In this document: one piece after another, positions 69 to 14,984 of the stretch
Numbering within the stretch: position 1 is the stretch's first letter
Layout of the letters: each line of letters opens with the position of its first letter
From: Desulfocapsa sp.
GTDB taxonomy: Bacteria; Desulfobacterota; Desulfobulbia; Desulfobulbales; Desulfocapsaceae
DNA length: 15,263 nucleotides
Direction: 5' to 3'
Assembly (NCBI GenBank): GCA_029942265.1
Contig: JAOZTO010000008.1
Span: 1 to 15,263 of the forward strand
The notes under the pieces: generated by a model
Told to the model about the DNA's origin: nothing
Seen by the model: the letters and a program-made list of their open reading frames with translations, nothing else
The model's database searches: none
Position numbers and translations under genes: made by a program

Positions 69-578
69 TCACTGCTCTATAAATTGCTCTAGCATCTGTA
101 TGTATCTGGAAGAATCCCATCTGGCCGGGCCGATGAATTTTCTCACAACCACCCCTTTTTTGTTAATGATATAGGTTTCCGGTACGCCTGTGAGACCATA
201 TTGTGCTCCCACAATATTTTTCTGATCATCAAGGATTGGCATAGTAAGCCCAAGTTTTCCAGCAAAACTGTCTGCTAGAGCAGGATCATCCTTGTTGAGT
301 ATGGCAAGCATTGTAAACGTGTCTTTTGGAAATCGTTCGTACAGTTTTTGCATTGAAGGCATCTCCTCACGACACGGCCCACACCATGTCGCCCAGAAGT
401 TCACAAAAACGACCTGCCCCTTCAACTCGGAGAGTTTCCATGTTTTTCCCTGTCTATCAACAAGAGTAAAATCAGGAGCAGGTTTGCCGACGGTTGCAAC
501 CTCTGGGGCAGAGCCGCAAGATGCCATACTCAATAGCACACAAGAAAATAACAATGTTAAGTACAAATATTTTTTCAT
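69..578 (-). CDS. TlpA/ResA-like thioredoxin lipoprotein
   Basis: Predicted membrane-anchored thiol-disulfide oxidoreductase facing the periplasm, 169 aa. A hydrophobic signal ends in a lipobox-like M-A-S-C with Cys21 as the lipidated residue. An AhpC/TSA-Redoxin-type fold follows, with the active site W-C66-G-P-C69 and the cis-proline loop G-V-P133. TlpA/ResA family members usually reduce apocytochrome or other envelope thiols, whereas the neighbouring DsbA/DsbB pair oxidises; which role applies here cannot be read from sequence. The ATG at 576-578 is chosen because it starts the signal peptide. A TTG at 597-599 in the same frame would add seven residues, and neither start has a clear ribosome binding site. 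It is the last gene of the minus-strand operon, 43 bp after the DsbA-like gene. Confidence 0.88.
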   Translation of the reverse strand: MKKYLYLTLLFSCVLLSMASCGSAPEVATVGKPAPDFTLVDRQGKTWKLSELKGQVVFVNFWATWCGPCREEMPSMQKLYERFPKDTFTMLAILNKDDPALADSFAGKLGLTMPILDDQKNIVGAQYGLTGVPETYIINKKGVVVRKFIGPARWDSSRYIQMLEQFIEQ

Positions 579-621
579 AGTAACCAGTAGATCCAGCAAC
601 TTGCCGGAACCACATGCACTC

Positions 622-1275
622 CTACTTTTTATAAGCTGCTTTAACTTCTGACTGAATCAATGCCTGAAGCTGTTGATAACCAAACTCCTGTAACGGCTTG
701 CCATTAACAAAATAGCCAGGGGTTTTTCGAACATTCAATGCCTTCGCATCAGCAATATCCTGGGCAATAAGCTTTGCAATTTCAGGGTCATTCATATCTT
801 TTTTGAGACGTTCCATGTCAAGACCTGCTTCAGGAAGAAACTCCCATACTCGCTGGGGTTGCGGATTGCTATGGCTGGCCCAGTAAGGTTGGGATTTAAA
901 CATGACATCCAGAGTTTCCCAATATTTCCCCTGTTTTTTGGCAGCTTCAAGAATCGTAACAAAATATTCCGCACCATCATGGAACGGAGCATAGCGAAGC
1001 ACAAGTTTTATTTGACCGGGATTATCATCCATCATCTGCCTCACAAAAGGTGCAAAGGCAGCGCAGGTTTCACATGCCGGATCCATAAACTCAACAATAT
1101 ACACTTTTGCATCATCACTGCCAAGTGTTTGAGAGTGGTCTCTTACAAAGGTTGAAATATTTTCCTGTGCCATAAAACTTGCTTTTTCAGCCTGCCTATC
1201 TTTGTACCACGAACTAACAAACATAAATCCAAAAATCAGGGCAAGACTTGCTACTGCCAGTATTGCATTTTTCAT
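622..1275 (-). CDS. DsbA-like thiol:disulfide oxidoreductase, membrane anchored
   Basis: 217-aa protein with one N-terminal hydrophobic segment (about residues 4-22), followed by a DsbA/BdbD-type thioredoxin domain. The catalytic pair is C68-E-T-C71 within D-P-A-C-E-T-C, and T185-P186-G is the cis-proline loop facing it. The central helical insertion typical of DsbA proteins fits residues about 95-175. It probably introduces or isomerises disulfides in exported proteins and is recycled by the DsbB-like protein encoded just upstream; their genes overlap by 4 bases (ATGA), which implies translational coupling. A good ribosome binding site (GAGGAG, 8 nt before the ATG) supports the start. The anchor appears uncleaved, so it likely stays at the outer face of the inner membrane. 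Confidence 0.88.
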   Translation of the reverse strand: MKNAILAVASLALIFGFMFVSSWYKDRQAEKASFMAQENISTFVRDHSQTLGSDDAKVYIVEFMDPACETCAAFAPFVRQMMDDNPGQIKLVLRYAPFHDGAEYFVTILEAAKKQGKYWETLDVMFKSQPYWASHSNPQPQRVWEFLPEAGLDMERLKKDMNDPEIAKLIAQDIADAKALNVRKTPGYFVNGKPLQEFGYQQLQALIQSEVKAAYKK

Positions 1276-1709
1276 TTAATCATTCTCCTCTGTAAAATAC
1301 ATAATAATGCGATAATTGCCGAAAATGCGAGCAAGGAAAGCATTGGAATTGTGATAAAACCAAATAAATCAATATATTCTTCTGTGCATGAAACTCCCTG
1401 TGTACAAGGCTGTATGCTTTCAGGAATAATACCGGAATAGAGCAAAGTATGATAAAGGGCAACCAGCCAGCCGGCAATGGCCAGGGGCAAAGAATACTTC
1501 ACTACACTCTTGTCAAAAGACAAAAGTCCTGCACCTAAAATTAACACTAGAGGAAACAACGATATCCTCTGATACCAACACAGTACACATGGAGCAAACT
1601 CCATTACAGAGCTGAAAAATATACTTATGGCAGTCGATACACTGACAAGAAGCCAGCATAGAAAAAGTATGGTCCAATTTGTGTTGGACTGCGGTTCAGA
1701 TGGTGACAT
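1272..1709 (-). CDS. dsbB: DsbB/BdbC-like disulfide bond formation membrane protein
   Basis: 145-aa inner-membrane protein with four predicted hydrophobic helices (about 12-34, 48-65, 73-92, 116-138). It carries the two cysteine pairs that define DsbB: C41-V-L-C44 followed by W-Y-Q-R in the first periplasmic part, and C102-x5-C108 in the second. The known role is to take electrons from a DsbA partner and pass them to quinone. The compact length fits the BdbC branch better than the longer E. coli DsbB. Its stop overlaps the start of the DsbA-like gene, so the pair is made together. GGAG lies 8 nt upstream of the ATG. The gene follows the ABC permease gene by 45 bp. Confidence 0.9.
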   Translation of the reverse strand: MSPSEPQSNTNWTILFLCWLLVSVSTAISIFFSSVMEFAPCVLCWYQRISLFPLVLILGAGLLSFDKSVVKYSLPLAIAGWLVALYHTLLYSGIIPESIQPCTQGVSCTEEYIDLFGFITIPMLSLLAFSAIIALLCILQRRMIK

Positions 1710-1754
1710 AAAGGGACTCCCAAAAAAAGTGACGAATAGAATGACAATTTGTTT

Positions 1755-2999
1755 TTATTTTGAAAAAAGAGTTTCTCGTATACCTGCCCTGCTTAATCTA
1801 TAGTTGTTCCATACTCCGGTAATAACAGCTGTAAAACATGTGGCAACAAATCCACAGATAAAGACAAGAGGCTGCAAGGTAACAGGTAAAGGAACCTGTA
1901 TAGCCTTACTGTTCTTCATTTGATGCATTCCTTCCGGATTTGGAGCAAGATTCCATGGAAGTGTTAAAGACACTTCCATGTTAGAGAATCCCTGTATAAC
2001 AAGATATCCCACCACCATTCCTCCTATCGCAGCGATTGCACTAATTGTAAAAATTTCTGCACTGGAATAGAGCAAAATATCTTTCTTCTGCCATCCTATT
2101 GTCTGCATCAAACCTATTTGCCAGCGTTGTTCCTCCTGTCTGCCAACAATAAGCCAGCAGGTAAAAAACAGAGTAAACAAAATAGTTATAAAGCTTAACA
2201 GACGTGATGCCGTAGAGCTGATTCTCGCAAACCCCTGCATCATCTCCCCTATGGAATCAGGTGAAGAAACAAGACTGCTCGGGATAATCTTCTGTATTTG
2301 CTGCGTTACTGCTTTCTTGTCTGTGCCCAGAACAAGACTTGCTGACAAAAGGTTTACAGAATCCTTATCCATCCCAGCAAGTTCCCGTGCATCGTCCAGA
2401 GAAATATAAAAATTTGCAGCAGCAAGTGCGGCTCCGCTTTTAATTTTACTGATACCAACAATATGAAACAACCGTTCGCCTAAATGAATAGTCGCACCAG
2501 GTTTGAGCGAATGAAACCGTGCATAATGACTCTCGACAACTGTTTCGCCACTGTTTTGCAGACTGCGCCCTTTTGAAATCCATTGCAATACCTTAGCAGG
2601 GCCTCTGTCAGTGGAATTTTTATCTACTCCTGTAATCGTGATAAAATTTTTCTTTTCTTGATGCCAAAGAAGGATCGCACTATCCAGTTCTTGGATTTCC
2701 GTAAGTTCACTTATATTTTGTACTATGTTTTTATCAATAACCTGATTAGAGAATGGCAGTTTAATAGCACTGTCGTTCTCCTTGATTTGTCTTTTTCCGT
2801 CTGCTCCCAGTTGGATTAGCAAATCACTTTCAATTCTACTGAAAGGGAGACTAACAAGTGCAGTATAGCTTGCGCCAATCGAGGATATTGTAATAAAAAA
2901 AGCAACACCCAGCACAATGCCAGCCACCAGCCACCCCGAACGTTTCCAATTACGACATCCGGCTTTTACTCCTTGTCGAATAAGAGATGTGATTTCCAT
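1755..2999 (-). CDS. ABC transporter permease, MacB/FtsX type (second permease)
   Basis: 414-aa integral membrane subunit with the architecture of MacB/LolC/LolE permeases. One N-terminal helix (about 22-45) is followed by a periplasmic domain of roughly 220 residues and three C-terminal helices of the FtsX core. The motif before the second helix (E-E-Q-R-W-Q-I-G-L-M-Q-T-I-G-W) corresponds to the E-R-T-x-E-I-G-x-x-K-A-x-G coupling helix of the family, but is degenerate. It should pair with the permease encoded at 4096-5352 and the ATPase between them, giving a heterodimeric exporter or extraction machine. I prefer the ATG at 2997-2999, which has an AGGTGA site 5 nt before it. A GTG at 3006-3008 is also possible and would overlap the upstream stop as GTGA. 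Substrate unknown. Confidence 0.85.
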   Translation of the reverse strand: MEITSLIRQGVKAGCRNWKRSGWLVAGIVLGVAFFITISSIGASYTALVSLPFSRIESDLLIQLGADGKRQIKENDSAIKLPFSNQVIDKNIVQNISELTEIQELDSAILLWHQEKKNFITITGVDKNSTDRGPAKVLQWISKGRSLQNSGETVVESHYARFHSLKPGATIHLGERLFHIVGISKIKSGAALAAANFYISLDDARELAGMDKDSVNLLSASLVLGTDKKAVTQQIQKIIPSSLVSSPDSIGEMMQGFARISSTASRLLSFITILFTLFFTCWLIVGRQEEQRWQIGLMQTIGWQKKDILLYSSAEIFTISAIAAIGGMVVGYLVIQGFSNMEVSLTLPWNLAPNPEGMHQMKNSKAIQVPLPVTLQPLVFICGFVATCFTAVITGVWNNYRLSRAGIRETLFSK

Positions 3000-3004
3000 T
3001 GTAC

Positions 3005-3418
3005 TCACCTTACTTCTTTATCAAGCAGGATTTTCAAATCATCCAGTGACCAGTTTCCCTCTACTCGTTTAAAGGGACTGGCACCGGTAGGAAATCCCTG
3101 CAAACTGATCTCTCTTCCTTCAATAGTGAATTTTGACTGATCATTAATCAATATCAGCATGGGAATATGGCCTGTGATATTTTTTTTCTTGCTAAATGTT
3201 TTTCCGGATTTCTGGTCTACATCGTACCATTCAGCCTGCACTCTATCTCCATATTCAGCAAGAAGCGTTTTGATTTGAGCAACGGTTGGGCGCATGGGGC
3301 CGTGATTCATAAAAAGAATATCAACCTTTGTCGCAGCTGATGCGGTGGAATACAGAACAAAAAACAGCAGAAGAAATGTAAAAGAAAATGATGCAATTTG
3401 TTTGGATATATTATTCAT
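3005..3418 (-). CDS. Small periplasmic thioredoxin-fold-like protein without CxxC
   Basis: 137-aa protein with a cleavable signal peptide (cleavage likely after A-S-A, residue 28). The mature part follows a thioredoxin order: strand V-D-I-L-F-M-N, helix about 43-57, strand V-Q-A-E-W-Y-D-V-D, helix, then T-G-H-I-P86 in the place of the cis-proline loop and a hairpin (K-F-T-I-E-G-R-E-I). The position of the catalytic CxxC reads N-H-G-P-M-R-P, and the whole protein contains no cysteine, so redox catalysis is unlikely. Its gene overlaps the ATPase stop by 8 bases (ATGAATAA) and sits between ABC genes, which suggests a periplasmic accessory or substrate-handling role. No firm family name. Upstream in-frame codons overlap the ATPase gene and look like non-coding extension. 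Confidence 0.75.
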   Translation of the reverse strand: MNNISKQIASFSFTFLLLFFVLYSTASAATKVDILFMNHGPMRPTVAQIKTLLAEYGDRVQAEWYDVDQKSGKTFSKKKNITGHIPMLILINDQSKFTIEGREISLQGFPTGASPFKRVEGNWSLDDLKILLDKEVR

Positions 3419-4103
3419 GATATGTGACCTCTCCGTCCTGCATATAAAGTGAGCGATTAGACAACTTTGTGATTTCACGGTCATGGGTGACCATAAACAG
3501 GGTAACTCCCTGTTCGACATTAAGCGAAACAAGGAGATCTAGAATTTCCTTCCCTGTTGTTGAATCAAGATTTCCTGTGGGTTCATCACAAAAAAGAATG
3601 GATGGCTTGTTGACCAAAGCCCTTGCAATTGTTACCCGTTGCCGTTCCCCACCTGAAAGTTTTGCCGGAAGATGATCTGCCCTTCCTGACAATCCCATTT
3701 GGTCCAGCAGGCTTTGTGCCCGTTCGTTACGTTCTTTTTCCGGTATTTTGACAGGATAAAGTGGAAAAGCGACATTCTCAAGGGCACTCAAAGTGGGGAT
3801 AAGATGAAAATCCTGAAAGACAAAACCCACAGATTTCCTTCGCATAAGGGCCAGTTGATCTTCATCAAGTGCGACAATCTCACGTCCCTGTAACACAATT
3901 GAGCCTGTATCCGGTTTCTCAAAACCGGCAATAAGGCCAAGCAGGGTGGTTTTTCCAGAACCTGACGAACCAACAAGTGTTACAAACTCCCCCTGTTCCA
4001 CACAAAAACTTACATTTTGAACAGGTTTCACCGAACCAAAATGTTTACTTATTTTTTTAACCGTGATTGCAGACACTGCTTCTTTTTTACACTTTTCATT
4101 CAT
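3411..4103 (-). CDS. ABC transporter ATPase, MacB/LolD type
   Basis: 230-aa cytoplasmic ATPase with all canonical parts: Walker A G45-S-S-G-S-G-K-T52, Q-loop glutamine Q97, signature L-S-G-G-E-R-Q-R (149-156), Walker B I-L-F-C-D-E (169-174), D-loop N-L-D and switch histidine H207. The sequence P-T-G-N-L-D after Walker B is typical of the LolD/MacB/FtsE subfamily, which powers extraction or export across the envelope. The start at 4101-4103 overlaps the upstream permease stop by 8 bases (ATGAATGA), so translation is likely coupled. Reading further upstream in the same frame gives only permease-overlapping sequence that does not resemble an ABC N terminus. It serves the two permeases on either side. 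Confidence 0.95.
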   Translation of the reverse strand: MNEKCKKEAVSAITVKKISKHFGSVKPVQNVSFCVEQGEFVTLVGSSGSGKTTLLGLIAGFEKPDTGSIVLQGREIVALDEDQLALMRRKSVGFVFQDFHLIPTLSALENVAFPLYPVKIPEKERNERAQSLLDQMGLSGRADHLPAKLSGGERQRVTIARALVNKPSILFCDEPTGNLDSTTGKEILDLLVSLNVEQGVTLFMVTHDREITKLSNRSLYMQDGEVTYHE

Positions 4104-5352
4104 AACGGAGTACCTCTGATGTTTGTAATCGTGAAACTGCTCTGCCCGCACTCCACACTGTGCCAAGGCCAAGAAGCACTGGAACAGCACAACATAATAC
4201 GAGCAGTTGAGGAGAAAAATCCATCTGTAACTGAACCTTCCGGAATAACTGTTCAGCACCACCTGGCAAGAAATGCGGTATGGGAGCCATATCCCAAGGG
4301 ACCGGGATAGCAATAGTGATGTGGGAAAACCCCCATGCAGCAAGAACACCACCAAAAACGCCCAATACTGTTCCTATAAAGATATAGAGTCCGTTTTCTG
4401 CCAGCAACTGAGTACGAATATCAGCTCCCGTCCAGCCAACAGCCTTCATAGTACCGATTTCTTTAGTACGTTCAGCGATTGCAGCGGAAGCGTTACGAAC
4501 CACAAGAAGCATTGCAAGAAAGAATACCATGCCTGATATCAGTGCTGAAAACCGCTGGGTAAGGTTAAACATACTCCCCAGTAATTGTTTAAAAGAATCA
4601 GGAGTTGCAACACTGGTTTTTTCACCAAGCATCTCCCGTATCTGCTCGGCCAGATCTTCAGTTTTGTCACGATCTGCCTGAATAAACAGTATATTGCTAT
4701 CCTGTGGTTCAAAGCTGTGTATCTCTTTTACACCTGCGGCTTTCGAGGCAATCAGTTGCGCCTCCTGCAAAGGAATATAGAGATTCGCCGTACCAATCTG
4801 GCTAATTTGTGACGCATCAACCAAACCTGCAATAATGAACGACTCTCCACCAATTGTAACATTGTCTCCAATTCCAATGGAGTTTTGCTCTGCCCAGACA
4901 ATTTCGGCCAAAGCTTTTTCTGTGTCAGTTTCTGTCAGCATTCGTCCTTCAAGGACAGCACTACGCAATAAGGCAGGACCTGCTTTGTCTGTAGCGTTCA
5001 TGCCGACAACTATTTGAAAAACATCCTCAGAAAAATCCCAAAACAGAACTGCCTGACTGACCGACTGTATTCCGGGTAGCTGTTCAATCTCAATTCGTTG
5101 TTGATTTGTGATAGGAGCTACCGAACATGGCAAAACCGGCCCAGCCATCTGTTCCGGTACGTCTCCTGATTTTTGTACGGTTATGTTTGCACCGATATCG
5201 TTTAATGGTGCTTGAAATGCCTTTTCCAATGCGCCGGAAAGCAGTGTGACACAGATCAGAATAGTGGTGACAAGTGCCACCATTCCAATATTGACAACAG
5301 ATCTCCGTCCTCGCTTTGTCAGCTCACTTATAAGATACTTTCTGTTAATCAT
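4096..5352 (-). CDS. ABC transporter permease, MacB/FtsX type (first permease)
   Basis: 418-aa permease with an N-terminal helix (about 18-40), a MacB-type periplasmic core domain (about 45-265) and three C-terminal helices with the FtsX coupling motif E-R-T-K-E-I-G-T-M-K-A-V-G-W just after the first of them. The intact coupling motif contrasts with the degenerate one in its partner permease at 1755-2999, as often seen in heterodimers. A strong ribosome binding site (AAAGGAG, GGAG 9 nt before ATG) fixes the start at 5350-5352. The first 21 residues of the longer frame are not supported. Separated from the upstream small gene by 154 bp full of inverted repeats, so an internal promoter, processing or attenuation site is possible here. 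Confidence 0.92.
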   Translation of the reverse strand: MINRKYLISELTKRGRRSVVNIGMVALVTTILICVTLLSGALEKAFQAPLNDIGANITVQKSGDVPEQMAGPVLPCSVAPITNQQRIEIEQLPGIQSVSQAVLFWDFSEDVFQIVVGMNATDKAGPALLRSAVLEGRMLTETDTEKALAEIVWAEQNSIGIGDNVTIGGESFIIAGLVDASQISQIGTANLYIPLQEAQLIASKAAGVKEIHSFEPQDSNILFIQADRDKTEDLAEQIREMLGEKTSVATPDSFKQLLGSMFNLTQRFSALISGMVFFLAMLLVVRNASAAIAERTKEIGTMKAVGWTGADIRTQLLAENGLYIFIGTVLGVFGGVLAAWGFSHITIAIPVPWDMAPIPHFLPGGAEQLFRKVQLQMDFSPQLLVLCCAVPVLLGLGTVWSAGRAVSRLQTSEVLRYE

Positions 5353-5398
5353 GGGGTTGGTCTCCTTTGATTTCGAAAGTGATATTCTTTTGAACCTG

Positions 5399-5445
5399 AA
5401 TTGAGCAGTGAACAATCCTCCCGAGGATCACGCAACTACTCAATT
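5399..5445 (-). repeat. Nested inverted repeat in the ABC operon leader
   Basis: The outer arms at 5399-5409 and 5435-5445 (aattgagcagt / actactcaatt) pair with a single mismatch. Inside them atcctc/gaggat (5415-5420, 5423-5428) forms a second perfect palindrome. It lies about 50 bp upstream of the permease start. No T-run follows on either strand, so it is more likely an operator, an mRNA-processing stem or an attenuator than a classical terminator. A further pair, ACCTGAA at 5394-5400 and TTCAGGT at 5479-5485, brackets the region. Confidence 0.45.
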
Positions 5446-5962: not shown

Positions 5963-6054
5963 GAAAATTCAGTCACTATTCCTGTCTGTTGTCACTCATC
6001 GTTTTGATATATCTGACAACCGGATTGCGTTAACTCCTCCGTAAATATTCGGGT

Positions 6055-6072
6055 TGGGCTCAAAACAGCCCA
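6055..6072. repeat. Small hairpin/operator-like palindrome in the divergent control region
   Basis: tgggct (6055-6060) and agccca (6067-6072) form a perfect 6-bp stem with loop caaaac. Flanking bases extend the pairing imperfectly. It lies between the two divergent blocks and has no T-run, so an operator or a weak structure is more likely than a terminator. Confidence 0.3.
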
Positions 6073-6092
6073 GACCACTGAATTGTAAATGT

Positions 6093-6122
6093 TTGGATAC
6101 TATTCCGAAAACAGTTGATAAT
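6093..6122 (+). promoter_or_regulatory. Weak candidate promoter for the 393-aa protein gene
   Basis: TTGGAT (6093-6098), an 18-bp spacer and GATAAT (6117-6122, 5 of 6 to TATAAT) lie about 67 bp before the start codon at 6189. The -35 is poor. The only other AT-rich stretch (6158-6174) has no partner box. Confidence 0.3.
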
Positions 6123-6188
6123 GAATAGTGATTCAGTTATTATTTGTTCACATTGATTTTTTTTTAATAAAAATTGAGGCGAAAACAC

Positions 6189-7370
6189 ATGCTGAATAAA
6201 TATCGAGAACCCTATATCGTAAGAGAAGTCGCCCCATTTAAAGTGGATGGTCTCGCCATTCCTTATCCGGAATTTGTTCCCAGATTGTACAATTTTTGTA
6301 AAGAACTTGGATTCCGCCGAGGAGGAATTATTCCTTCCCGAGCTTTTTGTTCCGATGAAAACCAGGGTTTACCCATAATTCTGCTCACAAAACACTTTGG
6401 CAGCTTTCCTTTTAATCATGGCCTAATTGGCGGAATGTTGGCAGTAAGTCGTCACGGCCCTCACTCACAGCATGGCGATGATCTAGTCATTGTACAGGCA
6501 AGTCATGTTGGATACGACCCTGACACTGGGGAATATGGAACCTATCACCGACCACAGCTTTCAGGAGATGACCTTTGTGTCTCCTGTGGAAAACTCACTC
6601 ATGTTATCTCACCATACGTTGAACGTTACAAATTTGCCTGTGACCGCACTTTTCTCTGGCAGGATGAAAGTGGGCGTAGTCTGCTCACCACCAAAAATTC
6701 ACTGATTGATTTCACCTCCCACCCGGTAGAAAACGGATTAGTTCTCAAACTCTCCCACATGGTCAAGCATGACGAACAAGGTATCATTCGCCCATTATCC
6801 TCCGCAAGCACAACTCAAACCTATGAAATATCTGATGAATTCAAAAACAAACTTGATTCAAAAGGCTACAGATGGGAAACAGGTCAAGAACAGGCTATCG
6901 GCAAATGGTTGACAGCAGACCTCTTTTATTTCAAGGCCGACTTTCACGAAACCGATGATTCCATTTTACTTGAAAAAAATCTCATGGAGTTTATGCCTGA
7001 TATTGTTAGTTCCGAGTACCCTTCTCTGCGTGCTGCGGAAACAAACGTGCAACTGGAATTTTCACGTGTAGTCTTATCCATTCGGCGAGGAGATGAATAT
7101 AGAAATCGTAATCTTCTCTATATTGCCGGACTCAATATTGACATTTCTGAACATAACGGCTTTCCCCCAACAAATTATTTTATTCCCTGGGCAGCTCATG
7201 TGCAACTTGCCAGTGATACTCCGTCTGAATATTCCCATCCAATCGAACAGGAGAACCTTTTTAAGAAGTTGATGGCACAAAATGCAGACAATCCTGACCA
7301 GATCGATCTGAAAGAAAACATCAAACGAATGCTGACGGCACCACGTGTTGACATTCGAGCCGACCATTGA
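6189..7370 (+). CDS. 393-aa soluble protein of unknown function with a possible metal site
   Basis: No signal peptide or membrane segment, so cytoplasmic. I cannot name the family with certainty. The N-terminal 140 residues are the striking part: C54-S-D56, H69, N76-H77-G-L-I-G-G, H89-G-P-H92-S-Q-H95-G, then strand D-L-V-I-V-Q-A-S-H106-V-G-Y-D, and C130-V-S-C133-G. Clustered His/Cys residues suggest a metal centre. The order Cys-x-Asp, glycine-rich helix, hydrophobic strand ending in His, then Cys loosely resembles beta-carbonic anhydrases, though the Arg of C-x-D-x-R is absent. Residues 150-393 are mixed alpha/beta without recognised motifs. The ATG at 6189 has GAGG 9 nt upstream; a TTG at 6174 is the alternative. 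Same strand as the Ehr-type operon but 336 bp before it, so shared transcription is unproven. Confidence 0.8.
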   Translation: MLNKYREPYIVREVAPFKVDGLAIPYPEFVPRLYNFCKELGFRRGGIIPSRAFCSDENQGLPIILLTKHFGSFPFNHGLIGGMLAVSRHGPHSQHGDDLVIVQASHVGYDPDTGEYGTYHRPQLSGDDLCVSCGKLTHVISPYVERYKFACDRTFLWQDESGRSLLTTKNSLIDFTSHPVENGLVLKLSHMVKHDEQGIIRPLSSASTTQTYEISDEFKNKLDSKGYRWETGQEQAIGKWLTADLFYFKADFHETDDSILLEKNLMEFMPDIVSSEYPSLRAAETNVQLEFSRVVLSIRRGDEYRNRNLLYIAGLNIDISEHNGFPPTNYFIPWAAHVQLASDTPSEYSHPIEQENLFKKLMAQNADNPDQIDLKENIKRMLTAPRVDIRADH

Positions 7371-7384
7371 TTTCAATACCACAT

Positions 7385-7430
7385 TCGAGGAGATTCCTTC
7401 TTTTTTGTTGTTTTGTTGGAATCTTCTCGA
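7385..7430 (+). terminator. Stem-loop after the 393-aa protein gene
   Basis: A 13-bp stem (7385-7397 with 7418-7430; one G-U pair, otherwise perfect) encloses a 20-nt T-rich loop, 14 nt after the stop codon. A U-tract is missing directly after the stem, so termination efficiency is uncertain. The position suggests the 393-aa gene is transcribed separately from the following operon, or that the junction is attenuated. Confidence 0.5.
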
Positions 7431-7483
7431 TCAATAGTGTCTTTTCCTGAATTGTACCATTGAGCATCATTAGCAAATAATTG

Positions 7484-7511
7484 TTGACTTTTTTCAATTT
7501 GGCACTAAATA
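7484..7511 (+). promoter_or_regulatory. Weak candidate promoter for the Ehr-type operon
   Basis: TTGACT (7484-7489, 5 of 6 to TTGACA), a 16-bp spacer and TAAATA (7506-7511, only 3 of 6). It would give a leader of roughly 190 nt before the first gene, containing the hairpin at 7608-7623. No better pair was seen between the stem-loop and the gene. Confidence 0.3.
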
Positions 7512-7607
7512 CCTCCTTACTTTCATAAGTTGCCAGCCACGGAAACTTCTTTTGTTCTATTCCCGTGACCGACGACAGTAACGATGCTTCAATGCACCGT
7601 TGTTTTC

Positions 7608-7623
7608 GTGGGAATCATCCCAC
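7608..7623 (+). repeat. Short perfect hairpin in the operon leader
   Basis: gtggga (7608-7613) and tcccac (7618-7623) pair perfectly around the tetraloop atca, about 85 nt upstream of the first gene of the operon. Function unknown; it may be chance. Confidence 0.25.
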
Positions 7624-7706
7624 TTGCAGTTCGACAGAACCAAAATCATTTCATATTTTTCATATACAGAGAAACTGCACTTTCTTCATATGACACAAGA
7701 GGACGT

Positions 7707-9665
7707 ATGAATACCTTTTTTATTGCACTACTATTTATCGGAATCGGTGGCCTGCAAACGCTCATCACCTATAGGTTCTATTCAGTAATGAAAACCGTTG
7801 CAGTCACTGCCATTATCACTGGCTGTGCGCTTGGAACCTACGATGCTGTCATGCGAATTTTTCAGCATTCCGACCCTTTGGTATTCAGCTATCAGTGGTT
7901 ACAAATCTTCTCTTTTTCACTAAAATTAGACACTGTTTCCGCATTTTTTCTTGTCCCTGTTTTTGCGATTTGTGCTGTAGCTGCGCTATATAGTTACCAA
8001 TACATGCATGATGCAAAACGATCAGCTGCAACTGCCAACAACTACTTTTTCTATTCACTGCTTATTATTTCAATGGCACTTGTGGTCTGTGCAGACAACC
8101 TTATTACTTTTGCCCTTGCTTGGGAGATAATGTCTATCTCATCATTTTTTCTGGTCATTTATGATGTTCATAAAAAGGCCACCAGAGATGCCGGATACAT
8201 CTATTTTATCTTTACCCAGGCCGGCGCACTATTTATTTTTGCAGGATTTGGCTTTATCTACTCCCAAACCGGCAGTTTCTCATTTGACGCAATCGCCACA
8301 ATTCCCGAATACACCAAACTCGTCGCATTTATACTGATCCTTATTGGTTGCGGCTCAAAAGCGGGTATTATGCCGCTTCACATCTGGCTACCATACGCAC
8401 ACCCCGCTGCGCCTAGCCATGTTTCTGCTGTTATGTCAGGGGTTATGATCAAAATGGGTATTTACGGTATTGTGCGGTTTTATCTTCTGATGGAACCTAC
8501 ATCTGTTCTTTTTGGACAGATTGTTATCAGCCTTGGTATTCTTTCTGGTATCCTTGGTGTTGTCTACGCCATTGGTAAACAGGATCTTAAAAAGATGCTT
8601 GCGTATTCAAGTGTTGAGAATATCGGTATTATCCTTCTTGGTATTGGTGTTGGTATGCTGGGAGCAGCATCTGGAAATAAAACCATGGCCGCTTTTGGCT
8701 TTGCCGGTGGTTTACTCCATGTTTTCAATCACGCAATTTTCAAATCATTACTGTTTATGGGGGCAGGTTCTGTTATTCATCAAACCCATACAGGAGCATC
8801 CAACGAACTAGGCGGTCTAATGAAGACCATGCCCGTGACAGGGCGCACCATGCTTATCGGCTCTGTTTCAATTTCCGGCCTACCACCGTTTAATGGCTTT
8901 ATCAGTGAGTTTCTAATATTTTACGGTGCCATCCACGGATTGTCGCTCCATGGTGCATCCTTTGTTTTTTCGGCACTTGCTGTAATTGCACTTGCTGTAA
9001 TCGGCGCTCTTGCTGCCGCTGCGTTCACCAAGCTTATCGGTGTTGTTTTTCTTGGAGAACCGCGAAGTGATAAGGCTGCAAATGCAAGTGAAGCCGGATT
9101 TTTCATGGGAGCAGCGTTATCCATACTAGCGGCAAGTTGTCTTATTATTGGTGTATGGCCCGATTATTTTGTACAGGCGGCATTTAAGGCCAGTCAGGCA
9201 ATTCCGCTGGTTGCTGACTTTGCACCAGATTCCTTTATGCCTATTATGACAAATATTGCCAGGACTGCGGCACTGTTCCTTCTGTTCTTTGTTGCTGTTG
9301 TACTCCTTAGAAAGATCCTTTATGCAGGAAAAGAAATCACTAGATCAGGCACTTGGGGCTGTGGCTTTACCCAACCAACAGTGCGAATGCAATACACCGC
9401 AACTTCATACGCTGACAGTATGGTTGCTTTTTTCCGCCCCTTTATACAGGTACAGAAAAAATACTCCGGGATAGATAAAATCTTCCCTGGTAAAACAACC
9501 TACAGTTCCGAAATACATGACACCTCGGAAATTGGACTCAATCGCTTTATTGTTCGTCCAATAGTGTATGCACTCAGTAAACTGCGCTGGATTCAGCACG
9601 GTAATATTCAGCTCTACATTGGTTACATTGTGCTGACCATAGTGGTTATGCTTATCTTTATATAG
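7707..9665 (+). CDS. hyfB: HyfB-like antiporter-type membrane subunit of an Ehr complex
   Basis: 652-aa polytopic protein of the NuoL/MrpA (Proton_antipo_M) family, close to HyfB of group 4 hydrogenases in length and layout. The proton-path residues are in place: E140 in A-L-A-W-E-I-M, K218 in G-C-G-S-K-A-G, and K249 after H-P-A-A-P-S-H-V-S-A. A further Lys lies in D-L-K-K-M-L-A-Y-S-S. The C-terminal loop T-W-G-C-G-F-T-Q-P-T-V-R-M-Q-Y-T is the HyfB-type signature. It should translocate H+ or Na+, driven by the electron-transfer arm encoded downstream. The ATG at 7707 is preferred (AGAGGA upstream, hydrophobic start). An upstream start at 7584 would add 41 hydrophilic residues and is unlikely. 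The symbol is by homology; the complex is not a hydrogenase. Next gene 10 bp away. Confidence 0.92.
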   Translation: MNTFFIALLFIGIGGLQTLITYRFYSVMKTVAVTAIITGCALGTYDAVMRIFQHSDPLVFSYQWLQIFSFSLKLDTVSAFFLVPVFAICAVAALYSYQYMHDAKRSAATANNYFFYSLLIISMALVVCADNLITFALAWEIMSISSFFLVIYDVHKKATRDAGYIYFIFTQAGALFIFAGFGFIYSQTGSFSFDAIATIPEYTKLVAFILILIGCGSKAGIMPLHIWLPYAHPAAPSHVSAVMSGVMIKMGIYGIVRFYLLMEPTSVLFGQIVISLGILSGILGVVYAIGKQDLKKMLAYSSVENIGIILLGIGVGMLGAASGNKTMAAFGFAGGLLHVFNHAIFKSLLFMGAGSVIHQTHTGASNELGGLMKTMPVTGRTMLIGSVSISGLPPFNGFISEFLIFYGAIHGLSLHGASFVFSALAVIALAVIGALAAAAFTKLIGVVFLGEPRSDKAANASEAGFFMGAALSILAASCLIIGVWPDYFVQAAFKASQAIPLVADFAPDSFMPIMTNIARTAALFLLFFVAVVLLRKILYAGKEITRSGTWGCGFTQPTVRMQYTATSYADSMVAFFRPFIQVQKKYSGIDKIFPGKTTYSSEIHDTSEIGLNRFIVRPIVYALSKLRWIQHGNIQLYIGYIVLTIVVMLIFI

Positions 9666-9675
9666 GAAGACTTCG

Positions 9676-10611
9676 ATGGATTTTACTTTCTCTTTAGCGT
9701 CATTTCTTTCATTTCTGGTCGCTGTTGCCTTAGCTCCGCTGTTCATGGGCGTTATTTTAAAGGTGAAAGCCTTTTTTGCAGGGAAACAAGGCCCACCATG
9801 GCTAATAAAATACTACACGCTGATCAAACTATTGCGTAAAGGTTCTGTTTATTCAACCAGTACTACATTTGTCTTTAAGTTAGGGCCGATCGTCTCCTTT
9901 GTTACCGCATTGATGCTTCTGCTGTTTTTTCCATTTGCAGGGCTTCCGCCTGTACTTTCCTTTCATGGTGATGTTGTCATACTATTCTACCTTCTTGGCT
10001 TAGGAAGGTTCTTCACAGTACTTGCAGCACTTGACACTGCGTCTCCCTTTGAAGGGATGGGAGCTGCCAGAGAAGTGTTTTTCTCAGCACTTGCAGAAGC
10101 AACCATCTTTGTAATCATTGCGCTCTTTTTCAGACTGAGTGGCAGTTTAAGTTTTGCCGAATATTTTACAGGAGTCCACGCAGTAAACCTCTGGTCTGAA
10201 TCAGCAGCTCTTATCTTTCTTGTGCTGATTGCTCTATTTATCGTACTCTTAACAGAAAATTCACGGGTACCAGTTGATGATCCTGCTACGCATCTTGAAT
10301 TGACAATGATCCATGAAGTGATGATTCTTGATCACAGTGGTCCTGATCTTGCGCTTATCGAGATGGGTGCCTTCTTTAAAATGCTCTTTTATTCATCCTT
10401 TGTAAGCTGTCTGCTCTTTCCTTTCCATACAGGAACACCTTTATTCAATGTCATAATTTTTTATATCATTATGACTCTTGTTTATGCAACTGTTGGCCTG
10501 ATTGAGTCAATAACAGCACGATATAAAATGGATATGGTTCCAAACTTTATTCTTACCTCTTTTGCTTTGGTCTTCTTTGCAATTATCCTTACCATGGAGT
10601 TTGTCCAGTGA
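9676..10611 (+). CDS. hyfC: HyfC/NuoH-like membrane subunit of an Ehr complex
   Basis: 311-aa protein with about eight membrane helices of the NADH dehydrogenase subunit 1 (NuoH/HycD/HyfC/EchB) family, which connects the soluble arm to the ion-pumping arm. Conserved blocks: a cytoplasmic loop K-Q-G-P-P-W (37-42) ahead of L-L-R-K-G, S-P-F-E-G-M-G-A-A-R-E (123-133), and E194-N-S-R-V-P-V-D-D-P-A-T-H-L-E-L-T-M-I-H-E (194-214), the hallmark acidic loop of the hydrogenase-type branch. AGGA lies 8 nt before the ATG. Its TGA overlaps the GTG start of the next gene (GTGA), so translation is likely coupled. Confidence 0.93.
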   Translation: MDFTFSLASFLSFLVAVALAPLFMGVILKVKAFFAGKQGPPWLIKYYTLIKLLRKGSVYSTSTTFVFKLGPIVSFVTALMLLLFFPFAGLPPVLSFHGDVVILFYLLGLGRFFTVLAALDTASPFEGMGAAREVFFSALAEATIFVIIALFFRLSGSLSFAEYFTGVHAVNLWSESAALIFLVLIALFIVLLTENSRVPVDDPATHLELTMIHEVMILDHSGPDLALIEMGAFFKMLFYSSFVSCLLFPFHTGTPLFNVIIFYIIMTLVYATVGLIESITARYKMDMVPNFILTSFALVFFAIILTMEFVQ

Positions 10612-11264
10612 TACATATTTCCAATATTCTCTTGGCGCTGATTCTTCTGTCAGTGCTGCTGTCCCTGCGTTCCAACCGCCTTATGGCTCTGGTTAAACTT
10701 ATGGCTTTCCAGGGAGTTGTTGTCTCAGCAGTTCCTCTGGTTCTTGAAACATCACATGGGGTCAATGTAAATCTGTTTCTATTTTTCCTGCTTCTGGTGC
10801 TGGTAAAAGGTATTTTGATTCCAGGCCTAATGTACAGAGCGGTAAAATGGGTTGTGGTTGACAGGGAGATTGAGCCGATCATCGGTTATCATGCCTCTTT
10901 GTTTGCTGGGTTGATCATGATTGTATTTTCCGTATATGTGACCAACCATCTACAACTTGCCATGTTTTCAGAGAGCCATAAATTACTTATGGTTACAGGT
11001 ATCACCACCATGGGAGCCGGTTTGATTCTCCTTATGGCACGTCGTAAGGCCATTACTCAGGTTATCGGATACCTGATGATGGAAAATGGTATCTATCTTA
11101 TCGGTACCGCCCTTGCAAAACAGGTTCACACCCAATATGTAGTCGAATTTGCAGTTCTTCTTGATCTTATTGTTGCAGTACTGGTTATGGGTATTGTCTT
11201 AAATGATATCAACCACACCTTTGACGATGTTGACACTACCCTTATGGGACAGCTAAAGGATTGA
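10608..11264 (+). CDS. hyfE: HyfE-like membrane subunit (NuoK-related)
   Basis: 218-aa protein with six or seven hydrophobic helices, matching HyfE of formate hydrogenlyase-2 type complexes in length. The C-terminal half corresponds to NuoK, with the characteristic Q-V-I-G-Y-L-M-M-E159-N-G-I-Y glutamate in a membrane helix expected to take part in proton transfer. The N-terminal half (V-K-G-I-L-I-P-G-L) may relate to NuoJ-like helices. The start codon is GTG at 10608-10610, overlapping the previous stop, with GGAG 8 nt upstream. It ends 4 bp before the HyfF-like gene. Confidence 0.88.
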   Translation: MIHISNILLALILLSVLLSLRSNRLMALVKLMAFQGVVVSAVPLVLETSHGVNVNLFLFFLLLVLVKGILIPGLMYRAVKWVVVDREIEPIIGYHASLFAGLIMIVFSVYVTNHLQLAMFSESHKLLMVTGITTMGAGLILLMARRKAITQVIGYLMMENGIYLIGTALAKQVHTQYVVEFAVLLDLIVAVLVMGIVLNDINHTFDDVDTTLMGQLKD

Positions 11265-11268
11265 AACT

Positions 11269-12699
11269 ATGCTCCAATTAGTCTTTTTAATACCAATTAT
11301 TGCAGGAATTGCAGTGTTCTTCCTCCCTGTGAAAATAGGCAGGATGGTTCTTATTGGCACTGCCATTACTCATCTGCTTATCACTGCTCTTGAATGGTTC
11401 CATGTGACAGGTCCGCTGCACAACAAATACTTTAGTAACACGCCAGAAGGTATGCTGGTACTTGCTATTATGTCATTTCTGTTCTTATTTATCTCCCTTT
11501 ACACAATCTCCTATATGGCTGAAGTGGAGATGAGCAAAGAACCGACTTTCAATGCCTGCATGTTACTCTTTCTTGGTGCCATGTCCATGGTTACGATTGC
11601 TGATCATATCATTATGCTTTGGGTTGCAGTTGAAGCAACAACGCTAATGAGTGCGCCGCTTATTTTTGTGCGCCGATCAAAAGAATCTCTGGAAGCTACC
11701 TGGAAATACGTACTTATATGCTCTGTTGGTATTGCACTTGCTCTTCTTGGCTGTTTCTTTATTATCTTCTCCATGGAGATGAGCAATATCCACGTACCTA
11801 TTAGTTTTTCATCTTTAAGCGATGTGGCAGATCAGCTCAATTCTGTGTGGTTGAAGGCAGGGTTTATCTTTATAGTCATAGGTTATGGTACTAAAATGGG
11901 ACTTGCTCCCATGCACACCTGGCTTCCTGATGCCCATAGCGAGGCACCAAGTCCTGCTTCTGCACTCCTTTCAGGGGCACTTCTAAACTGTGCATTTCTT
12001 GGAGTGTATCGCTGTCACCAACTTATGCATAGTGCCGGACTTGGTGATTATTCCAGTAATGTTTTAATCGCCTTTGGACTTGCTTCCATGCTGGTGTCGG
12101 CTATCTTCATACTCAACCAGACCGATTACAAACGGATGCTTGCCTACTCCAGTATAGAGAATATGGGCATCATTGCGGTGGGTATTGGCATTGGTGGTTT
12201 AGCGGCCTTTGGTGCCATGCTGCATATGATTCATCATTCGCTTATTAAGTCCTCACTTTTTCTTTCAGCAGGAAATATCCTTCTTGGCTACGGGACAAAA
12301 TCCATTGACAAAACCCGTGGTATGCTCCGGCTTTTTCCAAAAACAGGCATGAGCTTTTTTGCAGGGTTTGCCGGAATTTCAGGGTTTCCACCATTCGGTA
12401 TTTTTATTAGTGAACTCCTTATTATTTTAGGTGCTATTCAAGCAGGGCGCTATGTCGCAGTCACTATTTTCATTTTCTGCCTGATCCTGATTTTTGCAGG
12501 GGCATCACGCCTTGTTATGCAAATGATCTTTGACGAAAATAAAGAGGACGACCGACTTGTTCCTGAAACATGGGCAAGAGCCTTGCCACCCATTATTCTC
12601 TTACTCACATCGATGGCTCTTATAATTTGGTTACCAGACTCTCTGTACCAGACAATTCAGAGTGCGATCTCATCCATTGGAGGCACAATACATGGATAA
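11269..12699 (+). CDS. hyfF: HyfF-like antiporter-type membrane subunit of an Ehr complex
   Basis: 476-aa polytopic protein, the second Proton_antipo_M subunit of the operon. It carries E122 in W-V-A-V-E-A-T-T, K209 in I-G-Y-G-T-K-M-G-L-A-P-M, then the block D-A-H-S-E-A-P-S-P-A-S-A-L-L-S-G. The helix position that carries a Lys in the HyfB-like partner (K249) reads L-L-N240 here, as is usual for HyfF. Downstream are D-Y-K-R-M-L-A-Y-S-S and a H-H-S-L-I-K-S-S lysine. A third such subunit (HyfD) is absent, so the complex would have two antiporter-like modules. AAGGA precedes the ATG. The stop overlaps the next start by 8 bases (ATGGATAA). Confidence 0.92.
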   Translation: MLQLVFLIPIIAGIAVFFLPVKIGRMVLIGTAITHLLITALEWFHVTGPLHNKYFSNTPEGMLVLAIMSFLFLFISLYTISYMAEVEMSKEPTFNACMLLFLGAMSMVTIADHIIMLWVAVEATTLMSAPLIFVRRSKESLEATWKYVLICSVGIALALLGCFFIIFSMEMSNIHVPISFSSLSDVADQLNSVWLKAGFIFIVIGYGTKMGLAPMHTWLPDAHSEAPSPASALLSGALLNCAFLGVYRCHQLMHSAGLGDYSSNVLIAFGLASMLVSAIFILNQTDYKRMLAYSSIENMGIIAVGIGIGGLAAFGAMLHMIHHSLIKSSLFLSAGNILLGYGTKSIDKTRGMLRLFPKTGMSFFAGFAGISGFPPFGIFISELLIILGAIQAGRYVAVTIFIFCLILIFAGASRLVMQMIFDENKEDDRLVPETWARALPPIILLLTSMALIIWLPDSLYQTIQSAISSIGGTIHG

Positions 12700-14212
12700 C
12701 CTCCTACAAGTTACTAACGGCGAGGCAGTATCCCGTTCCAACATCCCTAACCTGGACTTTAACACTTTCAGGCAGACTATTCTTGATGAAACCCGTCATA
12801 ACGGATTTATTGTTCAATTTTTTGCCTATGAAGATGAGGAAAAAACCCTCAAGCTCATTGCGGTTATTCGTTCAGGTCTGCATCTCTATGTTACTGGATG
12901 TTCCCTTGCCGATGAATACCCTGCTCTCACCGTTGAAAACGAAAAGTTTCACATGTTTGAACGTGAAATCGCAGAGCAGTTTGGAGTCCACCCTAAAAAT
13001 CATCCCTGGTTAAAGATGGTTCGATACCACGAAAATTATCGTGGTAAAGATGATGTCTTTGGTAATGACTACACGGAAGATATTCCTGGAAACTACCCAT
13101 ACTTTACCGTTGAAGGTGATTCCGTTCATGAAGTTGCTGTAGGCCCTGTTCATGCTGGAATCATAGAACCTGGACATTTTCGTTTCCAATGTGCCGGAGA
13201 AGAAGTATTCAGCCTGGAAATCCAGCTTGGATACCAGCATCGTGGAGCAGAAAAACTCCTTGAACAGCCGGGCATGGCAATGAATCGCCTCCCCGTTATC
13301 GCAGAATCCATAGCAGGCGACACCGCAATCGGACACAGTCTCTGTCATTCTCAGGCAATTGAAGCATTGGCAGGACTTGAGGTCGATGAGGCTTCAAAAA
13401 TCATTCGTTCTGTTGCTCTTGAGCTTGAGCGTATTGCCTGTCATGTTGGTGATCTTGGGGCACTTAGTGGTGATGTTGCCTTTAATCCACCAATGAATTA
13501 TTTTGGTCGTATCAGAGGGGAATTCCTCAACCTGTCAATGACCATGGCTGGTAATCGTTTTGGTAAAGGATTGGTTCGTCCTGGTGGTATCTCCTTTTCG
13601 GTACTGGCTGAGCATCGTAAAATTATCTGTGATAAAATTGCTAGTGAAACTCCTGGAATAACTAATGTCTGTGACCTTCTGTTCTCAGCTCATACGGTTA
13701 TCGCACGATTTGAAAACACAGGGACAGTACCTCGCAAACTTGCTGAAGAATTAGGGTTAGTTGGGTATTCAGGAAGAGCAAGTGGCCTTTCCTATGATGC
13801 CAGAGTGACTTTTCCAACAGAGGCATACGATACGGTAAAAGCCAATGTTAATGCACGTACTGTTGGGGATGTTTTTGCCCGAGCATCAGTGAGACGTGAA
13901 GAAATCATGCACTCTCTTCGGGTCATTCCTGAGTTACTTTCAAAGAATATTGATGCTCAGCCGATTCCGTTTGCACCCGGCTATACGCTTGCTCCTGATT
14001 CTTTTGTAGTTACCATCAATGAAGCTTGGCGTGGGGAAGTGTCACACTGTCTACTTACCGATAAAGATGGTGCGATTCTTCGCTACAAAGTCAAAGATCC
14101 ATCATTTCATAACTGGACTGGACTTGCCATGTCCCTGCGCAACCAGGGTATTTCAGATTTTCCACTCTGCAATAAGAGTTTTAACCTTTCCTACTGCGGA
14201 TTCGACCTGTAA
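12692..14212 (+). CDS. hyfG: HyfG-like large subunit (NuoC-NuoD fusion) lacking all NiFe ligands
   Basis: 506-aa fusion: residues about 10-130 are the NuoC (30-kDa) domain, with F-E-R-E-I-A-E-Q-F-G-V-H-P; about 145-506 are the NuoD/large-subunit domain, with G-P-V-H154-A-G-I-I-E-P-G-H-F-R-F. In active group 4 hydrogenases four Cys in E-R-x-C-G-x-C and D-P-C-x-x-C hold the NiFe centre. Here the first motif reads E205-S-I-A208-G-D-T211 and the second N498-L-S500-Y-C-G503, so C-to-A, C-to-T, C-to-S and C-to-G replace all four. The protein is otherwise intact, so this is a catalytically different member (Ehr type), not a decayed hydrogenase. It may react with quinone or another acceptor; the reaction is unknown. 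The ATG at 12692 has GGAGG 8 nt upstream. No protease-processed tail is present. Confidence 0.93.
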   Translation: MDNLLQVTNGEAVSRSNIPNLDFNTFRQTILDETRHNGFIVQFFAYEDEEKTLKLIAVIRSGLHLYVTGCSLADEYPALTVENEKFHMFEREIAEQFGVHPKNHPWLKMVRYHENYRGKDDVFGNDYTEDIPGNYPYFTVEGDSVHEVAVGPVHAGIIEPGHFRFQCAGEEVFSLEIQLGYQHRGAEKLLEQPGMAMNRLPVIAESIAGDTAIGHSLCHSQAIEALAGLEVDEASKIIRSVALELERIACHVGDLGALSGDVAFNPPMNYFGRIRGEFLNLSMTMAGNRFGKGLVRPGGISFSVLAEHRKIICDKIASETPGITNVCDLLFSAHTVIARFENTGTVPRKLAEELGLVGYSGRASGLSYDARVTFPTEAYDTVKANVNARTVGDVFARASVRREEIMHSLRVIPELLSKNIDAQPIPFAPGYTLAPDSFVVTINEAWRGEVSHCLLTDKDGAILRYKVKDPSFHNWTGLAMSLRNQGISDFPLCNKSFNLSYCGFDL

Positions 14213-14240
14213 GACAGGATATAAGTAAAGGCTGACAACT

Positions 14241-14984
14241 ATGTTAAAAGTTATAAAAAACAGAACAGAACAGGGCTACAGAACAACAAAATACCCGGAA
14301 GAAGCGATTAATCTCTATTCCCGTTATCGTGGATTACCCACGGTTCATCAGGATTGTGACAAAGAACTTGCCCGTCAATGTGCTGAAGCGTGTCCACAGG
14401 AAGCATTGAACAGTGATGAAATGGTAATTGATATTGGCCGTTGCACATTCTGCGGCCAGTGCGAGATCCAATCTGAAGGAAAGTTTGTAACATTCAGCAA
14501 TAACTTTGAACTCGGAACGTCAAGCAGGGAAGCACTCTTTACCAGCGGTTCTCTGCCAGCTCTTGCGGAGCACTCAAAACAGCATTTCAAGAAACTTTTT
14601 GGTAGATCGCTACAACTCAGACAAATATCAGCTGGTGGCTGCAACGCATGCGAAGCAGATACAAACGTTCTAGGAACGCCGTTCTTTGACCTGCAACGTT
14701 TTGGAATCGACTTTGTTGCCTCACCTCGCCATGCAGACGGTATTCACGTTACAGGTCCTATTTCCTACAATATGAAATCTGCTGTCCTTGCAACCTATGA
14801 AGCAGTTCCATCACCAAAAGTTGTTATTGCAAGTGGTTGTTGTTCTATTTCGGGCGGGCCATTCTTTGGTAGTAAAGATGTTGTGGGAGATCTCAACAGT
14901 TTACTACCAGTTGATTTGTATATCCCAGGTTGTCCACCGCATCCAATGACTACGTTGCATGCTCTTTTACAATATTTCAAGTGA
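14241..14984 (+). CDS. hyfI: Small subunit: ferredoxin-like domain fused to HyfI/NuoB-like domain
   Basis: 247-aa iron-sulfur protein. The N-terminal part resembles a HyfH/NuoI-type ferredoxin domain in which one [4Fe-4S] site is complete (C51-P with C68-x2-C71-x2-C74) while the second is eroded (only C39 and C47 remain). Residues 120-247 are the NuoB/HyfI domain holding the cluster nearest the active site: G-G-C134-N-A-C137, G-C200-C201-S-I-S-G-G, and P-G-C231-P-P-H-P. Both domains thus give a two-cluster wire that could take electrons from ferredoxin towards the large subunit. In Hyf/Hyc systems these are separate genes, so the fusion is notable. It ends the operon; the stop codon lies in the arm of an inverted repeat. 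Start supported by AAAGG about 10 nt upstream. Confidence 0.9.
   Translation: MLKVIKNRTEQGYRTTKYPEEAINLYSRYRGLPTVHQDCDKELARQCAEACPQEALNSDEMVIDIGRCTFCGQCEIQSEGKFVTFSNNFELGTSSREALFTSGSLPALAEHSKQHFKKLFGRSLQLRQISAGGCNACEADTNVLGTPFFDLQRFGIDFVASPRHADGIHVTGPISYNMKSAVLATYEAVPSPKVVIASGCCSISGGPFFGSKDVVGDLNSLLPVDLYIPGCPPHPMTTLHALLQYFK

Follow-up and report, generated by a model that had tools for sequence, protein, structure and literature searches.

LCIB-type carbonic anhydrase homologues encoded beside the Ehr complex in a Desulfocapsa genome and its relatives

Ehr complexes occur in several phyla; they have a group 4 hydrogenase-like subunit set without the Ni/Fe-binding residues, and their function is not established (excerpts of PMC6349859 and PMC10284858). 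We analysed one such complex in a contig of 15,263 bases from Desulfocapsa sp. (JAOZTO010000008.1, hereafter the window), part of a 588-contig assembly that is 88.85% complete. The six Ehr genes lie at 7707–14984, and upstream of them, at 6189–7370, we found a gene for a homologue of the LCIB-type beta-carbonic anhydrases (CA). A first-pass annotation of the window had recognised the Ehr type, which stands, and had overlooked this CA homologue, which recurs at other Ehr loci, leaving the description of the locus incomplete. Ehr itself is a known class, whereas its partnership with an LCIB-type CA appears to be new: no such partner is described in the excerpts of PMC6349859 and PMC10284858, and a search of open-licence papers in PubMed Central (PMC), with subscription papers and preprints outside it, turned up no paper that places an LCIB-type CA next to Ehr.

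Two described systems come closest. DAB2 pairs a beta-CA-like with a NuoL-like subunit, and hydration coupled to the proton motive force has been proposed for it, though the purified complex did not hydrate CO2 by itself; cyanobacterial NDH-1MS is described as coupling the oxidation of ferredoxin to the hydration of CO2 (excerpt of PMC13144422). The window is like DAB in encoding a beta-CA-like protein with a NuoL-like subunit, and in two gammaproteobacterial contigs (L195 and L198) a DAB cluster meets a relative of its CA (42–44% identity) end to end, on the opposite strand. It differs in that the locus lacks DabA, its CA belongs to the LCIB family and a whole redox complex forms the membrane partner. 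With NDH-1MS it shares a complex-I-like machine tied to CO2 hydration, a tie that for Ehr is proposed. NDH-1MS uses Cup proteins and plastoquinone, whereas an LCIB homologue is encoded here and the quinone-site tyrosine is absent from Ehr.

The CA homologue and its link to Ehr

The protein encoded at 6189–7370 (plus strand, 393 residues) is an LCIB-type beta-CA homologue, with CO2 hydration as its predicted activity. Sequence searches of solved structures failed to secure LCIB: the single sequence gave no LCIB match, and a profile recovered PtLCIB4 only at an E-value of 0.25, behind two unrelated chains. Family membership therefore rests on Pfam and on fold. The Pfam LCIB_C_CA match was narrow (26 bits against a cut-off of 25) and covered residues 23–135 only. 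The LCIB family came top in both fold comparisons of the predicted model, with structural alignments at 13–17% identity over 199–220 residues. Unlike LCIB and LCIC of algae and diatoms, to which it is this distant, the protein is bacterial, longer and encoded beside a membrane complex. Its zinc-ligand residues, C54 (6348–6350), H106 (6504–6506) and C133 (6585–6587), were kept in 85 of 88 distinct CA copies reduced from 108 stretches; one of the three misses (L189) is cut at a contig end.

The link between the two sets of genes was seen from both sides. Among 29 loci of clade A, the Ehr class of the window, the CA gene lay directly upstream of subunit L in 18, with gaps of 55–570 bp; these loci, the window included, were fetched by the large subunit alone and have at least 3 kb visible upstream of L. 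Starting from the CA, an Ehr gene was found within 3 kb in 31 of the 48 loci having at least 3 kb on both sides, and in 40 of all 79 loci, these being the best 79 of 138 hits to a query built on the same genomes and overlapping with the large-subunit loci. At the genome level, 26 of 96 related genomes (the window's own included) carried the CA, and clade-A Ehr was present in 23 of these 26 against 15 of the other 70. The 38 genomes with clade-A Ehr were listed by hand from large-subunit hits of at least 57% identity, one of them split, and Fisher tests on genome co-occurrence were uncorrected for kinship.

Across the 18 linked loci, the open reading frame (ORF) that comes next upstream of the CA fell into 9 clusters and the one that follows Ehr into 14, the window having none downstream. 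The flanks thus vary, which argues that the association is not mere synteny; the flanking ORFs were called mechanically and some are surely spurious, so their variety is overstated. The link has also survived changes of order and, apparently, of partner. The CA follows the last Ehr gene in four loci (L137, L138, L141 and L145), and in a single metagenome contig (L148) it precedes an Ehr of clade B, whose large subunit is 46% identical. The CA of L148 is sister (100/98) to that of a Tharpella locus (L154) in which Ehr is of clade A; this looks like one CA lineage paired with two Ehr classes. From these gene neighbourhoods, an association that is well supported, we consider it probable that the genes for Ehr and for the CA share one function.

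Some loci depart from the simple arrangement. A tandem pair of CA copies lies upstream of one Ehr operon (L164:5281–8377), and a third, more distant CA type (36% identity to the window's) occurs at 8655–9818 of L113, whose genome has an Ehr-linked copy besides. The CA is also present in cable bacteria (Candidatus Electrothrix; L176 and L155), adjoining Ehr in E. gigas and without Ehr in the locus in E. aarhusensis. In L148 (4620–6522) the CA is separated from the first L gene by a helix-turn-helix gene, excisionase-like by eye, and genes similar to it lie ahead of clade-B Ehr in L099, L101 and L102. In L082, L090, L091 and L096, where the CA is missing, genes resembling sensor kinases and/or NtrC-type regulators, named by eye, precede Ehr.

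The Ehr complex and its former NiFe site

The region 7707–14984 holds six intact genes on the plus strand, with a subunit set of the hydrogenase 4/formate hydrogenlyase type. Two antiporter-type subunits, NuoH, HyfE, NuoCD and NuoB are all encoded in the window; NuoEFG, the NADH module of respiratory complex I, has no gene in this interval, where only the six Ehr genes are found. Pfam and NCBIfam matches, together with the ligand columns described below, confirmed the first-pass annotation's claim of a complete six-gene Ehr-type complex.

The large subunit (12692–14212, 506 residues) is a HyfG/HycE-like fusion of NuoC and NuoD that matched PF00346 at 112 bits. Its closest solved relative by sequence was 7z0s_E, formate hydrogenlyase subunit 5 (E-value 1e-41), which in the fold comparison was also the sole entry among the 50 listed that aligned from residue 1, over 457 residues. 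In the predicted structure of the lone subunit, the former NiFe pocket (residues 132–183 and 478–506) was of low confidence. Alignment with E. coli HycE and HyfG placed A208, T211, S500 and G503 (numbered from the start at 12692) in the four NiFe-cysteine columns, exactly the residues named by the first-pass annotation, and neither of the two CxxC motifs that bind NiFe in group 4 hydrogenases was found. The same holds throughout the clade: none of 90 related rows had a Cys at any of the four columns (Ala 82, Ser 6, Gly 1 and Val 1; Thr 86 and Ser 4; Ser 89 and Asn 1; Gly 90). The rows were 93 less three E. coli controls, hits of fewer than 380 query residues having been dropped, and 13 of them are near-copies of others. 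That the clade shares this Cys-free motif rules out a sequencing error, or a decaying large subunit, and argues for the selected change that the annotation had proposed.

G209 and D210 were invariant in all 90 rows, and C502, between the last two ligand positions, was present in 82. G209 stands at the column of the NuoD quinone-site tyrosine, so that every row has Gly where E. coli NuoCD has Tyr. In a tree of 80 large-subunit rows, left after 13 at 97% identity or more were removed from the 93, the window protein branched outside the E. coli HycE/HyfG pair (100/99), at a long distance from NuoCD, a placement that depends on few named references and long branches; Ehr-like rows from plasmids grouped on the window's side of the three E. 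coli proteins. Labels for CA presence in this tree were set by hand, and many rows entered through the CA query, which biases the share of CA-bearing rows.

The small subunit (14241–14984, 247 residues) fuses an N-terminal HyfH-like ferredoxin domain to a NuoB-like domain; PF01058 matched at 90 bits, and HyfH/HycF-type NCBIfam models matched residues 1–105, under cut-off. Cys 134, 137, 201 and 231, which align with the four proximal-cluster Cys of HycG, were conserved in all 41 orthologues, in keeping with the annotation's view of the cluster cysteines. These four residues bear on the possibility that Ehr, like MBS of Pyrococcus, reduces sulfane sulfur or polysulfide. Such chemistry would be plausible in a genus that includes the sulfur disproportionator Desulfocapsa sulfexigens, and MBS has likewise lost two of its four NiFe cysteines as well as quinone residues (excerpt of PMC7684303). 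MBS, however, has three proximal-cluster Cys in a shortened motif, where Ehr keeps four, and a sulfur reductase would leave the CA unexplained. We therefore disfavour an MBS-like role and regard it as very improbable.

The remaining genes encode the membrane arm. Subunit L (7707–9665, 652 residues), a HyfB/NuoL-like antiporter-type subunit, matched PF00361 at 198 bits and the hydrogenase 4 subunit B model NF005086 at 571 bits, under its cut-off of 667. Subunit H (9676–10611, 311 residues) is NuoH/HyfC-like (PF00146, 106.8 bits), and subunit K (10608–11264, 218 residues) is HyfE-like, matching the hydrogenase 4 membrane subunit model NF008556 at 74.4 bits, under its cut-off of 136. Subunit M (11269–12699, 476 residues), HyfF/NuoM-like and also of antiporter type, matched PF00361 at 181 bits, and its best NCBIfam models were those for hydrogenase 4 subunit F, under cut-off. 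The proton-path residues, said in the first-pass annotation to be conserved, proved to be so in part. E140, K218, K295 and E401 of L were kept in 36 of 36 orthologues, and E122 and K209 of M in 39 of 39. Other positions were altered: NuoL R175 and D178 (Gln 31 and His 5; Ala 33, Thr 2 and Val 1), NuoM K265 (Asn 36 and Ser 3), NuoM E407 (Lys in 2 of 39) and NuoH E218 (His in 41 of 41).

Desulfocapsa sulfexigens and genome content

D. sulfexigens DSM 10523 (G009) is listed in the same genus as the window's genome, and its locus (L080) reads LCIB-type CA, Ehr, beta-CA. A 2024 review judged the pairing of CA and "formate hydrogenlyase" genes in this organism hard to understand (excerpt of PMC10880623). 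The large-subunit matches in D. sulfexigens were this Ehr and, beyond it, only a NuoD-like gene at 26% identity; judged from these matches, the formate hydrogenlyase-like complex of the review is very probably this Ehr. The term LCIB does not occur in the main text of PMC10880623. Our data suggest that the LCIB-type CA flanking Ehr on its other side went unnoticed.

On the reading given in that review, the complex would be a formate hydrogenlyase, and the CA would convert formate-derived CO2 to bicarbonate for a formate:bicarbonate antiporter. The proposal is published (excerpt of PMC10880623) and the gene set is formate hydrogenlyase-like, with the E. coli enzyme (HycE/HyfG) giving the closest solved large subunit. 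Ehr differs from that enzyme in having no Cys at any of the four NiFe-ligand positions and no FdhF-like gene in the operon: stretches resembling E. coli FdhF (26–28% identity) were found in 4 of 144 loci, none of them inside the operon, other types of formate dehydrogenase not having been sought. On these two grounds we rejected a formate hydrogenlyase identity, which is hardly credible.

The absence of hydrogenase maturation genes from the window, correctly reported in the first-pass annotation, carries no weight, because HypD was found elsewhere in the genome. Pfam also matched a NiFe hydrogenase large subunit over its full length (735 bits) at least once in this genome, with further partial matches. 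The genome has a CdhC match too, from which an acetyl-CoA synthase is probably encoded. In this 88.85% complete assembly, neither a canonical beta-CA nor DabA (PF10070) was found, absences to which the missing part of the genome gives limited weight; DabA matches occurred in 1 of 96 related genomes. Beyond the genes discussed so far, the minus strand of the window (69–5415) carries genes that we named by eye as a thioredoxin-like lipoprotein, DsbA, DsbB and an ABC transporter with two FtsX-like permeases.

A proposed role in CO2 and bicarbonate handling

Our favoured reading, offered tentatively, is that the locus is a CO2/bicarbonate-handling module in which a redox-driven, complex-I-like ion pump (Ehr) and an LCIB-type CA would serve to hydrate CO2 or to trap bicarbonate. 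Its less certain part is that the pump is directly coupled to net hydration, which we put forward with slightly more reserve. A low-potential donor, probably ferredoxin, would pass electrons to the ferredoxin-domain cluster and on to the NuoB-like proximal cluster, for both of which the ligands are present in the sequence. The electrons may then exit through the large subunit's remodelled pocket, which has an invariant G-D motif and neither NiFe cysteines nor the quinone tyrosine. The redox work would drive H+ or another cation through L and M, in which key residues are mostly kept. At the cytoplasmic face the CA would hydrate CO2 and the pump would remove the product proton or supply a cation gradient, so that CO2 is trapped as HCO3−. 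Ehr would thus act as a motor for the CA through a presumed contact between them, with DAB2 and cyanobacterial NDH-1MS as precedents. In its strongest form, Ehr of this clade would drive a new kind of vectorial CA: an LCIB-type enzyme docked on the metal-less hydrogenase would carry out net CO2 hydration, powered by ferredoxin-driven electron flow; we think this doubtful. Equally doubtful, as part of the same claim, is that sulfur disproportionators and cable bacteria use such a system as a third route next to DAB, one that would match NDH-1MS but be anaerobic and non-photosynthetic.

The wider neighbourhoods show the CA accompanying bicarbonate and ion transport systems, with Ehr its commonest companion in this set, which was drawn from the same genomes. 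Where ORFs were called mechanically, the Trk-like and NhaP-like genes included, neighbours were named by eye unless Pfam is stated. A canonical beta-CA lies 3' of the Ehr genes in L072, L073, L078, L079 and L080 (Pro_CA confirmed by Pfam for L080), a SulP transporter adjoins Ehr in L071, L083, L084 and L093 (confirmed by Pfam for L084), and a CitMHS/DASS-type carrier lies 5' of Ehr in L069. In L125, L143 and L187, all from Desulfobacterota, the CA adjoins SulP with Ehr not in view, and in L143 MnhE lies 3 kb from the CA. In a Methylophaga contig (L193) an Mrp operon, its MnhE confirmed by Pfam, directly follows another CA relative of the 42–44% identity range, and Trk-like genes (L183) and an NhaP-like antiporter (L139) adjoin the CA elsewhere in Desulfobacterota. 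DabA lies 4.6–4.7 kb from the CA relatives of L195 (Pfam, 782 bits) and L198 (by similarity). The DAB cluster of L195 (3749–13222) comprises DabA and four NuoL-like genes, three of them named by similarity only.

Several observations count against the CO2/bicarbonate reading. Some concern the company that these genes keep. SulP and DASS carriers could transport sulfate in these organisms, and a role in ion or pH homeostasis would explain the Trk, Mrp and NhaP-like neighbours just as well. The DAB cluster and its CA are convergent and hence not co-transcribed. The subunit L gene lacks an upstream CA in 11 of the 29 clade-A loci. From the CA side, Ehr is missing within 3 kb at 17 of the 48 loci, one of them (L183) having it 4.7 kb away, and at several CA loci without Ehr (L159, L169, L172, L175, L182, L191, L194, L196 and L199) no ion transporter was recognised by eye either. 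A profile search of six-frame ORFs in L064–L123 for a divergent CA hidden in the CA-less loci recovered only known copies.

The gap between the two sets of genes adds to this. In the window it contains a 13-pair hairpin (7385–7430, plus strand), a possible terminator or attenuator: the 110-nt stretch folds at −23.7 kcal/mol (z = −2.57), as well as which only 3 of 200 shuffles folded. No T run immediately follows the hairpin, which makes a terminator function putative only. A repeat search missed this hairpin and found others in three of six CA–Ehr gaps (L065, L067 and L068), and one more was seen by eye in L080. Hairpins in some of the gaps allow separate transcripts. Over 6000–7900, scans gave 7 promoter-like sites against 4.0 (standard deviation 2.1) in shuffles and 1 terminator-like site against 1.5, and no RNA family reached its gathering score in the window.

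The hairpins, the many Ehr loci without a CA and the occurrence of the same CA beside Trk-like, Mrp and NhaP-like genes would all suit a looser partnership. Ehr would then pump H+ or Na+/K+ at the expense of redox energy, in the service of energy or pH homeostasis, and a soluble CA would feed H+ and HCO3− to Ehr and to neighbouring transporters, a shared task with no mechanical coupling. Such an arrangement has a fair minority of the probability; it fits less well with Ehr being the commonest companion of the CA in the loci examined, and with a link that outlasts rearrangement and apparent partner change.

The CA itself supplies the other points against CO2 handling. LCIB showed no CA activity in vitro (excerpt of PMC9614477), and family membership is therefore no proof of activity. 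The active-site loops of the predicted model (residues 55–58, 76–91 and 131–133) were of low confidence. Directly upstream of Ehr in L074 (13093–14181) and L076 (5860–6870) are CA homologues, 30% and 27% identical to the window's, that have lost all three zinc ligands, which suggests that the protein can also play a non-catalytic role near Ehr. Nor does the LCIB-type CA convincingly replace the canonical beta-CA: of the 96 genomes, 12 had both, 14 the LCIB type only, 46 the beta-CA only and 24 neither (P = 0.10).

Clade B and the plasmids bear on whether the neighbourhood is simply incidental, Ehr being a ferredoxin oxidoreductase pump with a small-molecule or quinone acceptor and the CA merely sharing its regulon. 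In 11 of the 12 clade-B rows, all but L148, no CA is in view, although L100, L103 and L121 show less than 2 kb upstream. Plasmids of Variovorax, Rhodococcus, Paraburkholderia and Methylocalor likewise carry Ehr-like sets with no annotated CA within about 12 kb, three of the gene tables, those from PLSDB, being incomplete; in the Rhodococcus set the NuoB gene comes first. Set against these, the co-occurrence within clade A and the repeated adjacency make a purely incidental neighbourhood improbable.

The first-pass annotation's statement that Ehr has no established reaction still holds; a testable link to CO2 and bicarbonate now exists, and the recurrent CA partner makes that gap experimentally specific. 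The published puzzle of D. sulfexigens, a CA beside a "formate hydrogenlyase", can be re-read as a CA beside Ehr. If the CO2/bicarbonate reading is true, anaerobes of the Wood-Ljungdahl type would have an energised CO2 trap that has been overlooked until now.

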